64,000 nucleotides of DNA from Parabacteroides sp. PM6-13 (lineage in GTDB: Bacteria; Bacteroidota; Bacteroidia; Bacteroidales; Tannerellaceae): the NCBI RefSeq assembly GCF_029892605.1, contig NZ_JARXWF010000012.1:1-64000 (forward strand), written 5' to 3'. Every line of letters starts with the position of its first letter. Position 1 is the stretch's first letter. A model generated the notes under the pieces. The model searched no databases. It had not been told where the DNA came from and saw only the letters and a program-made list of their open reading frames with translations. Below are positions 33,572 to 37,027 of the stretch, one piece after another. The translations under genes and the position numbers were made by a program.

Positions 33572-34732
33572 ATGATTATTGGTATTCCAAAAGAGATCAT
33601 GCCTGGCGAAGCCCGCGTAGCCGCCAGCCCGGAGACAGTAAAAAAGTTTATCGCCGATGGCGCAACAGTTCTGGTTGAGCACAAAGCCGGAGAAGGTTCT
33701 TTCTACTTCGACGAAGCCTATACAGCCGCCGGTGCGGAGATCATCGCTTCTGCCGAAGAGCTTTTCAACAAAGCAGACCTGATCCTGAAAGTAAAAGAAC
33801 CGCTCTTCAACAACGAGTTCAACAAGCACGAAGTGGACCTGATGCATCCGGGACAATACCTTATCACATTTATACACCCGGCCTCTCCTGTCAACCATGA
33901 GATGGTGCGCCAATTAGCCGAAAGAGGTATTATCAGTATGACCCTGGACGGCATCCCACGTATCTCACGCGCTCAGAATATGGATGCCCTGACATCGATG
34001 AGTACCTGCGCCGGATACAAAGGTATGCTTTTGGCTGCCAATGCGATGCCTAAGTTTATGCCCCCCATGTTCACAGCCGTAGGTTCCATTCAACCCGCCA
34101 AGGTATTGGTGATTGGTGTGGGTGTAGGCGGTTTGCAGGCTTTGGCTACGGCCAAACGACTGGGTGCCGTTACCTACGCGACGGATATTCGTCCGGCAGC
34201 TATCGAACAGGCACAGAGCCTGGGCGCTAAGGTGGTTGACATGGGCATACCTGCCGAGATGGCGATTGCTGAAGGTGGTTACGCCAAGGATCTGCCCGAA
34301 GAATGGCTGGAAAAAGAGCGTGCAAAACTGCGTGAAGTTCTGAAAGATATGGACGTGGTGTTCTTAAGCGCATTGGTTCCGGGCAAGATCGCTCCTGTAC
34401 TGATCACGGAAGAGATGGTCAAAGAGATGCCAAACGGTTCGGTGATTGTCGATATCTCGATCGACCAGGGCGGTAACTGCGACATCACACCCGCGGGAAA
34501 AACAGAAGTAAAACACGGTGTCACACTGATAGGTATTAAGAATATACCGGGTATGCTGCCGACCAGCTCAACCTGGATGTTCTCCAACAATGTGTACAAT
34601 CTGGTGAAATACCTGGTAAAAGACGGAAAGATCGAATTAGACAGATCAGACGAAATCGTAGACTCTATCTTAGTGACTATCGACGGTAAAGTAGTACATA
34701 CAGGGGCTTTGGAAGCCATGAATAAAAAGTAA
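33572..34732 (+). CDS. pntA: Proton-translocating NAD(P) transhydrogenase, alpha subunit soluble part
   Basis: The 386-aa protein is the NAD(H)-binding domain I of the membrane-bound transhydrogenase. It starts MIIGIPKEIMPGEARVAASP, with the AlaDh/PNT fold; the NAD-binding loop VLVIGVGVGGLQALATAKRL and the segment DIRPAAIEQAQSLGAK are typical. The membrane part of the alpha chain is a separate gene (next), which is the three-gene arrangement seen in several bacteria. The complex couples hydride transfer between NADH and NADP+ to proton movement. Confidence 0.93.
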   Translation: MIIGIPKEIMPGEARVAASPETVKKFIADGATVLVEHKAGEGSFYFDEAYTAAGAEIIASAEELFNKADLILKVKEPLFNNEFNKHEVDLMHPGQYLITFIHPASPVNHEMVRQLAERGIISMTLDGIPRISRAQNMDALTSMSTCAGYKGMLLAANAMPKFMPPMFTAVGSIQPAKVLVIGVGVGGLQALATAKRLGAVTYATDIRPAAIEQAQSLGAKVVDMGIPAEMAIAEGGYAKDLPEEWLEKERAKLREVLKDMDVVFLSALVPGKIAPVLITEEMVKEMPNGSVIVDISIDQGGNCDITPAGKTEVKHGVTLIGIKNIPGMLPTSSTWMFSNNVYNLVKYLVKDGKIELDRSDEIVDSILVTIDGKVVHTGALEAMNKK

Positions 34733-34736
34733 GACA

Positions 34737-35048
34737 ATGAATCCGATATTTCTGGTACTGATATTTTTGGTATCCTCCATCGTTGGTTATTTCATTATCA
34801 AGAATGTGCCGAGCTTACTACATACACCCCTGATGACAGGGATGAATGCGCTGGCCGGTGTCTGCCTGTTGGGCGCGGTGATCACTGTCGGATATTCGTA
34901 TCAGGCGGGAGGAACAGGGCTCGTGATCGGGCAGATCTTCGGTGGAATAGCGGTTGTTCTGGCAACCGTGAATGTGGTAGCCGGCTTTGGTGTGACCCAT
35001 CGTATGCTCAAGATGTTTAATCCCAAGAAAAAAACGACTGACAAATGA
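34737..35048 (+). CDS. pntAB: Transhydrogenase alpha subunit, membrane part
   Basis: The 103-aa protein has three transmembrane helices, with LVSSIVGYFIIKNVPSLLHT and PLMTGMNALAGVCLLGAVIT matching the conserved start of transhydrogenase domain II, then GQIFGGIAVVLATVNVVAGF. It begins four bases after pntA and overlaps pntB by four bases, so the three are translated as a unit. Confidence 0.9.
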   Translation: MNPIFLVLIFLVSSIVGYFIIKNVPSLLHTPLMTGMNALAGVCLLGAVITVGYSYQAGGTGLVIGQIFGGIAVVLATVNVVAGFGVTHRMLKMFNPKKKTTDK

Positions 35049-37027
35049 TGACGGAAACATTCTATTATATTGTTTGTGTAGTTCTCTCGCTCCTCTCATT
35101 GCTCGGGATATCCATGATGAGCAAAGTCTCCTCTTCGGTTCGTGGTAACCTGTTATTATCGTTCTGTCTGTTGGCGGGAACGGTGGTGACCCTGTGGTAT
35201 TACCAGATCTTCGAAGTCGGGACAATCTACGCGTTTATACTGATCGGTAGCCTTATCGGGGCTGTCCTGGCCTATAAGGTGCAGATGATACAGATGCCAC
35301 AGACCGTGGCCATGCTGAACGGATTGGGCGGACTGGCCGGTGCTGTGGTGGGCGCTTTGACGCTTATCAACATTGGCGTAAAACCTTCCGACTATCCGTT
35401 GTTTGTCAACGTAACAGCCACCCTGGCTATTGTGGTCGGCATGGTAACCTTTGTCGGCAGTATGGTGGCGGCGGGTAAATTGCACCGGTTGCTTTCCCAG
35501 AAGCCTATTATCTGGAAAAACCATCAGTTGATCACCATTCTGTTGATGATCGGTTCCATCGCTTCGGTTGTTTTTGCCTTCTTCATCGGCAAAGACATGG
35601 GCATCCTGTCGAATATCTATTTCATCATGGCGGCAGCTGTGGTGTTCGGTTCGTTTTTCGGACTGGCATTTGCCATCCGGGTAGGTGGCGCTGATATGCC
35701 GATCACCATCTCCCTGTTGACATCCCTTGCCGGGATAGCAGCCGCGATTGCCGGTATGGCGATCGGTGACCTATTGGTTGTTTCTATCGGAGGTATCGTC
35801 GGTTCATCGGGACTGCTCCTGACACAGATCATGTGCCGGGCCATGAACCGGAGCCTGGCGGTTATCCTGATGGGGAAAACATCGGTAGATCCTGCTCCCG
35901 GAAACAGCGAGAAGCCTATTGAACCGGTAGCCGAAAAGGAAATGCCGAAGCCACAACCTCAAGAGAACTCGCCCGGCGAACGACTGAGATCTGCTAAGCG
36001 GGTGATCATTGTTCCGGGTTATGGTATGGCCTTGGCACAGGCGCAACACCAGGTTCGCCAGTTGGCCGATGCCCTGGAAGCACAGGGTACAGAGGTCAGA
36101 TACGCCATCCATCCGGTGGCCGGACGTATGCCGGGTCACATGAATGTGTTACTGGCGGAAGCCGATGTGGCCTACGACCAACTGTATGAGATGGATAATA
36201 TCAACGACGACTTCAAAGAGACAGATGTTGTCGTGGTGATCGGAGCCAATGATGTACTGAACCCGGCGGCCCGCGACGCCGAAGGGACTCCGATCTATGG
36301 CATGCCGGTATTGAATGTTGACGAGGCCAAATACATCATCATCTGCAACTTCGACCGCAAACCGGGCTATGCCGGCGTTCCCAATCCGCTGTATGAAATG
36401 GAGAAGGTGGCCTTGATGCTGGGTGATGCCAAAGAGTCATTGGCACAGGTGATGCGGGAGATGAACACGCAGAAGAGCGATGCCCCCGCTGCCGAGCCAC
36501 AGCAAACGACAGGCGCCAACACCGGAGAGGTACTGAAATCGGCCAAACGAGCGATTATCGTTCCGGGCTACGGCATGGCACTGGCACAGGCGCAACATCA
36601 GGTTCGCCAGCTTGCCAACGCGTTGGAAATGCAGGGCACAGAGGTCAGATACGCCATTCATCCGGTGGCGGGACGTATGCCGGGACATATGAATGTGCTG
36701 CTGGCGGAAGCCGATGTGGCCTACGACCAACTGTATGAAATGGATAATATCAACGATGACTTCAAGGATACGGATCTGGTCGTGGTGATCGGAGCCAACG
36801 ATGTATTGAACCCGGCCGCTCATGATGCGAAAGACACCCCTATTTACGGGATGCCCGTATTAAATGTAGAGCAGGCAAAACATATCATCATCTGCAACTT
36901 CGACCGCAAACCGGGTTATGCCGGCGTGCCGAACCCGCTGTATGATATGGAGGAGAAAGTCACCATGATGCTGGGGGATGCCAAAGAGTCATTATCCCAA
37001 CTATTGAGTATGTTGCATAATTCCTGA
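35045..37027 (+). CDS. pntB: Transhydrogenase beta subunit with duplicated NADP-binding domain
   Basis: Residues 1 to about 290 are the usual membrane domain II (MLNGLGGLAGAVVGALTLIN). The NADP-binding domain III then occurs twice: about residues 312-476 and 496-655, each with IIVPGYGMALAQAQHQVRQL, HPVAGRMPGHMNVLLAEADV, VVIGANDVLNPAA and RKPGYAGVPNPLY. I count roughly 17 differences over about 154 aligned residues. Normal PntB has one copy, near 460 aa; this one is 660 aa. The copies are joined by a linker rich in Ala, Gln and Pro. Both keep the NADP-binding motifs, so both may be functional. Confidence 0.92.
   Translation: MMTETFYYIVCVVLSLLSLLGISMMSKVSSSVRGNLLLSFCLLAGTVVTLWYYQIFEVGTIYAFILIGSLIGAVLAYKVQMIQMPQTVAMLNGLGGLAGAVVGALTLINIGVKPSDYPLFVNVTATLAIVVGMVTFVGSMVAAGKLHRLLSQKPIIWKNHQLITILLMIGSIASVVFAFFIGKDMGILSNIYFIMAAAVVFGSFFGLAFAIRVGGADMPITISLLTSLAGIAAAIAGMAIGDLLVVSIGGIVGSSGLLLTQIMCRAMNRSLAVILMGKTSVDPAPGNSEKPIEPVAEKEMPKPQPQENSPGERLRSAKRVIIVPGYGMALAQAQHQVRQLADALEAQGTEVRYAIHPVAGRMPGHMNVLLAEADVAYDQLYEMDNINDDFKETDVVVVIGANDVLNPAARDAEGTPIYGMPVLNVDEAKYIIICNFDRKPGYAGVPNPLYEMEKVALMLGDAKESLAQVMREMNTQKSDAPAAEPQQTTGANTGEVLKSAKRAIIVPGYGMALAQAQHQVRQLANALEMQGTEVRYAIHPVAGRMPGHMNVLLAEADVAYDQLYEMDNINDDFKDTDLVVVIGANDVLNPAAHDAKDTPIYGMPVLNVEQAKHIIICNFDRKPGYAGVPNPLYDMEEKVTMMLGDAKESLSQLLSMLHNS

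Follow-up and report, generated by a model that had tools for sequence, protein, structure and literature searches.

Classical membrane transhydrogenases, which pass hydride from NADH to NADP, have a single domain III (dIII) on each PntB chain. In the cycle described in a passage of PMC9529548, this domain occupies in turn a face-down, open state at domain II, a detached, occluded state, and a face-up state at domain I. Another passage of that source identifies K424-R425-S426 of E. coli PntB as the KRS motif of the NADPH site. As stated in part of PMC5742237, the domain I dimer binds a first dIII tightly, with a Kd below 60 nM, and a second one weakly (approximately 10^-5 M), and two dIIIs could not both be face-up without clashing. 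A long debate, framed in terms of division of labour and a swivelling dIII, concerns the way in which proton gating and hydride transfer are divided between the two dIIIs of a transhydrogenase dimer. No PntB with more than one dIII appeared among the papers listed by searches of open-licence PMC full text, although one could be reported elsewhere. An excerpt of PMC7614955 describes tandem nth genes, an increase in transhydrogenase copy number, in Porospora (Apicomplexa). Porospora repeats whole genes, whereas the locus described here repeats a domain within one protein.

We analyzed a 64,000-nucleotide stretch of DNA from Parabacteroides sp. PM6-13, referred to here as the window; all features described lie on its + strand. 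The pntB gene (35045..37027, 660 aa) overlaps at its start with the stop of pntA2, and pntA1 and pntA2 are intact and directly upstream, the pntA1-pntA2-pntB form of split-subunit bacteria. The pntA1 product (33572..34732, 386 aa) is the NAD(H)-binding domain I, with Pfam matches to AlaDh_PNT_N (1.2e-43) and AlaDh_PNT_C (1.9e-60), and motif comparison with other classes indicated that its NAD site is retained (the RAQNMDALTSM loop and the D of 'ATDIRP' ending beta-2). The pntA2 product (34737..35048, 103 aa) is the membrane part of domain II, alpha-2 (Pfam PNTB_4TM, 6e-26, and alignment). As in the classical NADH:NADP+ transhydrogenase, a domain I with an NAD site and domain II subunits adjoin pntB.

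The pntB open frame, with zero stops, matched PF02233 twice, at profile positions 3-455 and 278-454, both above the curated cut-off; the whole protein scored 779.9 bits in two stretches (cut-off 31.7). Residues 1-276 (35045..35872) form membrane domain II by alignment with E. coli PntB chain 9l76_C, with predicted helices at 4-266. A Pro/Glu-rich tether (residues 277-312, 35873..35980), marked by its length and composition and by pLDDT <50 at 279-307, leads to dIII copy 1 (residues 313-472, 35981..36460; domain HMM bounds and predicted fold). A linker (residues 473-494, 36461..36526; pLDDT <50 at 477-491), of a type rich in S, A, E, T and P throughout the group, joins it to dIII copy 2 (residues 495-656, 36527..37012; PF02233 match, domain HMM bounds and predicted fold). 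The original prediction of two dIII copies in one PntB was therefore borne out, with both copies complete, and the linker, put at about 20 residues, was found to be about 22. The copies share 139 of their 160 aligned residues (86.9%), so that the approximately 17 differences first given become 21. At the DNA level, the repeat consists of a 300-nt block with 85% identity (35973-36272 / 36522-36821) and a second block of 42 nt with 88% identity. A genome search with PF02233 gave two matches, both inside pntB, making this frame the only PntB of the genome; a separate single-copy pntB in the same strain, which had been named as a possible sign of artefact, is absent.

The predicted model of window PntB has membrane helices, two dIIIs that share their element order, and disordered linkers; with a mean pLDDT of 75.9 and a pTM of 0.54, the relative placement of its domains carries no meaning. 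Its best match among solved structures was E. coli PntB 9l76 (TM-score 0.84 by target length). Domain order, fold and the glycine/HPVAGR/GAND/GMP residues are shared with PntB of E. coli (9l76), Thermus (4o9u) and sheep (ovine 6qti). Unlike classical PntB, the window protein has two dIIIs (its relatives have one to four) and longer tethers rich in Pro; N-F-D replaces K-R-S, and histidine is absent from the channel positions in TM9 and alpha-2 TM3. It scored 567 bits against NCBIfam PRK09444 (Re/Si-specific NAD(P)+ transhydrogenase subunit beta), below the 689 needed. By homology the protein is PntB; we stop short of classing it as an established NADH:NADP+ proton pump because the KRS motif, a single dIII and the channel histidine were each tested for and found lacking.

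On a domain II tree of 48 rows, 41 distinct proteins with an N-[YF]-D motif were split from 7 KR[SG] proteins at 100/100 support, and window PntB belongs to a distinct membrane transhydrogenase lineage, here named the NYD lineage. Identical proteins were counted once among the 41, L064 lacks its first residues at a contig edge, and loci truncated at a contig or locus end (L049, L050, L074, L085, L086, L088, L092, L102 and L108-L111) were left out before the count. Loci L148-L158 are in no tree.

A tethered domain in several copies

Our preferred reading, to which we give a probability of about 0.5 on the basis of sequence, a predicted model and analogy, is that dIII is a shuttle domain on a tether and has been multiplied, with the copies pipelining nucleotide exchange and hydride transfer in the manner of lipoyl domains in E2. 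Domain III would act as a mobile carrier of hydride and nucleotide on a flexible tether. In the classical enzyme, the lone dIII of each protomer would alternate between domain II, where it would be face-down and open, exchanging nucleotide and gating the proton channel, and domain I, where it would be face-up and occluded and hydride transfer would occur. A protomer with at least two dIIIs could have one of them at domain II and, at the same time, a second reacting at domain I, so that the steps would be pipelined rather than strictly alternating, with more loaded carriers per membrane unit. Both copies would be expected to bind nucleotide and to dock on both partners, the substrate would presumably still be NADP(H), and the gain from an extra dIII would probably be kinetic. 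Proton coupling is only assumed for the window enzyme, since the beta TM9 and alpha-2 TM3 histidines are both absent. The extra copies are not a necessity, given that single-dIII members are common (23/41). The suggestion in the original prediction that a second dIII could alter mechanism or stoichiometry keeps its conditional wording, the tandem dIII itself being real.

The tethers of the NYD lineage are consistent with this shuttle reading. The distance from MNR to PGYG had a median of 54 (range 44-121, n = 41) in NYD proteins compared to 47 (range 44-52, n = 63) in KR[SG] proteins, a difference whose test value of 5e-10 overstates significance because the rows are related. Proline made up 7-11% of the tether in NYD proteins versus 3% in KR[SG] proteins. 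There was no difference in tether length between single- and multi-dIII members of the lineage (p 0.23), and the linkers between dIIIs are S/A/E/T/P-rich. One protein with a single dIII, L087, has a 121-residue tether of Pro/Glu/Thr/Val-rich repeats.

In pyruvate dehydrogenase, the lipoyl domains of E2 sit on flexible linkers. Part of PMC8421416 describes them as a varying number of similar mobile carrier domains per polypeptide. The window protein and its relatives would resemble these arrays in having similar tandem domains on linkers of low pLDDT (in one model) and a number that varies among relatives. Unlike a lipoyl domain, dIII binds its nucleotide non-covalently and also gates a membrane channel, and the likeness would be one of working mode, not of homology.

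Copy number and history of the dIII copies

A survey of pntB across Parabacteroides, which the original prediction had proposed, found PF02233 matches in 3 of 5 genomes (own included), all three with two dIIIs; Parabacteroides sp. PF5-6 (G002) and PFB2-10 (G003) have the same layout as the window. In the family, 9 of 123 genomes matched (own included), 5 with two dIIIs and 4 with one. The order sample gave matches in 77 of 295 genomes, and beyond G000 and G002 it contained three dIIIs in G236 and G310 and, in G397, an array of at least three split over two contigs. Matches were found in 24 of 101 genomes of the Dysgonomonas hofstadii family (13 with one dIII, 9 with two or more, 2 incomplete), including four dIIIs in G513 and an array broken at contig ends in G459. 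Searched at 1e-20, the phylum to which an Acholeplasmataceae record belongs had matches in 15 of 392 genomes; 11 of these matches belong to the NYD lineage, 3 of them with several dIIIs (G675, G738 and G830), and 4 are KR[SG], the lineage being called by the dIII motif or by the TM3/TM9 reading where the motif was missing. The order of G675 gave matches in 4 of 8 genomes, all four multi-dIII, with G675 and G738 already counted above.

PF02233 matched 176 of 395 genomes in the Bacteroidota sample, and among the matches listed the window genome alone belongs to the NYD lineage; the other listed matches, at 38-47% identity, do not extend beyond query residue 501, approximately where copy 2 starts. 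No close PntB relative was found on plasmid records, where 294 matched and those listed (15 of the 294) were all below 60% identity. At least two dIIIs were present in 22 genomes (G000, G002, G003, G034, G036, G236, G310, G397, G414, G415, G457, G459, G460, G463, G465, G466, G513, G675, G738, G830, G1300 and G1302), in an uneven sample whose loci are the best-scoring of searches in two phyla. Two side observations concern individual genomes. G036 has two separate pntB loci (L052 and L053), each with a double dIII, and G513 has, besides its four-dIII PntB (L093), an extra dIII-only match on another contig (C170) in a 206-aa frame.

Copy numbers of one to four thus extend through a whole PntB lineage in two phyla, and multiple dIIIs co-occur with the N-[YF]-D motif change, neither of which was part of the original prediction. 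The 41 distinct NYD proteins have one dIII in 23 cases (one of them, L096, a minimum, as its 3' end is cut at a contig edge), two in 11, three in 6 and four in 1. A second dIII was found in none of the 63 classical KR[SG] PntB proteins, all with the 3' stop read. The link of multiple dIIIs with N-[YF]-D rests on one clade, that is, on one evolutionary event and not on a replicated association. Within the lineage, nature provides enzymes whose chains have one, two, three or four dIIIs on otherwise similar membrane domains, among them close relatives that differ in number, and this series makes both the need for alternation and the limiting step directly testable. It amounts to a natural experiment on how many dIII copies a transhydrogenase needs.

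The number of copies has not been stable. The domain II tree requires at least 7 changes between single and multiple dIIIs and at least 12 changes of number, and well-supported branches alone force 5 changes in the single-copy label; the extra copies would therefore have been gained and lost repeatedly, in agreement with the earlier warning of a risk of collapse. Such frequent change is also what one would expect of neutral copy-number drift, in which dIII plus linker is a recombination unit, tolerated by virtue of the flexible tether and giving little or no functional gain. We regard this alternative as possible but doubtful. It gains from the high frequency of single-dIII members noted above and from differences between close relatives, as L071 and L072 have two dIIIs and L073 has one, with domain II nearly identical in all three. 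The single dIII of L073 groups weakly with copy 2 of L071 and L072, as collapse predicts, and here a collapse in assembly is also possible.

Selection on the copies speaks against drift in most pairs. Window copies 1 and 2 differ with a dS of 0.93, a dN of 0.073 and an omega of 0.079, and from these substitution rates both copies are judged to be under purifying selection (omega approximately 0.08). In 35 within-protein comparisons of dIIIs, dS ranged from 0.04 to 1.54. Pairs with dS above 0.4, which include all six pairs of the four-copy L093, had an omega of 0.02-0.12, except for L101, whose copies had an omega of 0.36 and are what drift would predict. Constraint of such long standing argues against drift, under which an unused copy should decay, and so does the absence of the expansion from the 63 KR[SG] proteins. 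Copies 1 and 2 of L063 have identical protein sequences with a dS of 0.12.

The dIII tree also bears on drift, to which it lends some support: as read from the tree, 13 of 18 multi-dIII proteins have all their copies in a single clade, some of these clades being weakly supported. The copies thus usually appear closer to their partner in the same protein than to their orthologues. Exceptions were the window and L003, and L071 and L072, whose copies pair by position, and L070, with copies dispersed among near relatives. The original prediction had taken the similarity of the window copies as a sign of recent duplication or ongoing gene conversion. A recent duplication in the window strain is ruled out by the dS of 0.93, and much conversion since the split from PFB2-10 is ruled out by the site patterns, with 37 orthologous and 2 homogenized sites. 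The comparison with PF5-6 gave 9 orthologous and 40 homogenized sites, and that with D. hofstadii gave 1 and 52. Duplication, and most of any conversion, therefore came before the PFB2-10 split; re-making or homogenization of copies would have taken place on a longer time scale, with hardly any in the window strain after that split. A test for conversion tracts by the longest identical run, a weak test applied to 8 chosen pairs, gave p values of 0.04 for the window pair, 0.03-0.06 for L003, L004 and L070, 0.92 for L012, 0.95 for L047, and <0.002 for copies 3 and 4 of L093 and for L101.

The 2'-phosphate motif and the remaining alternatives

The original prediction described the NADP site motifs as intact in both copies, which does not hold for the 2'-phosphate motif. 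A gap-free alignment with the E. coli and Thermus chains places N-F-D at the KRS position, as N435-F-D-R-K-P in copy 1 (36347..36364) and N618-F-D-R-K-P in copy 2 (36896..36913). The solved chains that were matched by sequence and shown aligned have KR at the motif. In the NYD set of 73 dIIIs, which takes in copies of L049, L050 and L111, N was found in 73/73 and D in 72/73 (one gap), so that the NADP site is not fully intact anywhere in the lineage. The KR set had K in 61/61 and S or G in 61/61, the motif being caught by pattern in these 61 (L029 and L146, read by eye, bring the set to 63); its K count is circular and proves nothing alone because the set was chosen by the KR motif, and the independent split is that of the domain II tree. 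Single-copy members also have N-[YF]-D, and the motif change therefore predates the expansion or is separate from it. Elsewhere the domain is well kept: 41 positions are near-invariant (>=97%) over 134 dIIIs, including PGYG, HPVAGRxPGHMNVLLAE, GAND..N and GMP, and both window copies hold all 41.

Loss of K-R-S might mean a substrate other than NADP, and a rewritten 2'-phosphate motif in the very domain that sets NADP specificity questions the label 'NADP transhydrogenase' for genes of the NYD lineage. An acidic residue that replaces Ser at the 2'-phosphate usually signals a preference for NAD. Jackson and colleagues reportedly held that dIII can bind NAD(H) too and that this could cause slip, and an alternative built on this is that the N-[YF]-D dIII binds NAD(H), instead of or besides NADP(H); the enzyme, with its specificity relaxed, would then act as a regulated proton leak (or 'slip'), and the tandem copies would provide a dIII for each nucleotide. 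The near-uniform N and D, the replacement of Ser by an acidic D, and the fully supported split of the lineage on the domain II tree all point in this direction, as does a domain I that stays NAD-type in the 20 NYD rows read (D-x-R of the NAD site in 20/20, and RAQxMDALTSM or a similar loop in 19/20, L047 not being caught by the pattern). However, a dIII that took NAD(H) only would transfer hydride from NAD to NAD with zero net redox change. In addition, the nearby R438 and K439 could contact the 2'-phosphate (the relatives vary between R, L, T, A and K at the first and K, N, S and Q at the second), and the window copies share one motif and so are not split in specificity by it. We consider this alternative improbable. 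A related proposal joins changed nucleotide use to the arrays: the NYD transhydrogenase would be functionally different, its dIIIs accepting NAD(H), or a nucleotide of either kind, by virtue of a rewritten 2'-phosphate pocket, and each membrane unit would be served by a loaded pool of nucleotide carriers, tethered in arrays of two to four dIIIs. If true, the NYD enzyme would be a multi-carrier redox pump or leak that replaces strict two-state alternation, a proposal that we think somewhat unlikely.

An assembly or sequencing artefact is highly improbable for the window and is refuted for the lineage by diverged copies and many genomes, for although repeats break assemblies and arrays end at contig edges in G397, G738, G459 and G1300, the window copies differ by 21 residues at the dS given above, multi-dIII PntB occurs in 22 genomes (on contigs of at least 2.3, 2.4 and 3.7 Mb in G457, G465 and G466, and in G036, assembled in 9 contigs), and collapse of copies is likelier than their creation.

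Channel histidines

An excerpt of a review describes the central channel histidine as conserved, with its position shifted. In alignment with 9l76_C, window PntB has Asn92 at the position of E. coli His91 in TM9. Window pntA2 reads 'MNALAGV' in TM3, with Ala and no histidine where the Thermus-like class reads 'NAIHG', a site that we take to be the place of Thermus His42. The missing histidine was first suggested as a mark of the NYD lineage by comparison with two other classes, and was rejected as such since neither histidine is present in any of the 29 KR[SG] loci L119-L147. Other channel positions were inspected for histidine by eye only, in 6 of these 29 loci and in L104, L106 and L107, which read alike. 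The KR[SG] PntAB group across the Bacteroidota sample (L119-L147) has 'NAISG' in TM3 and Asn in TM9 in 29/29, an absence that conflicts with the review's statement.
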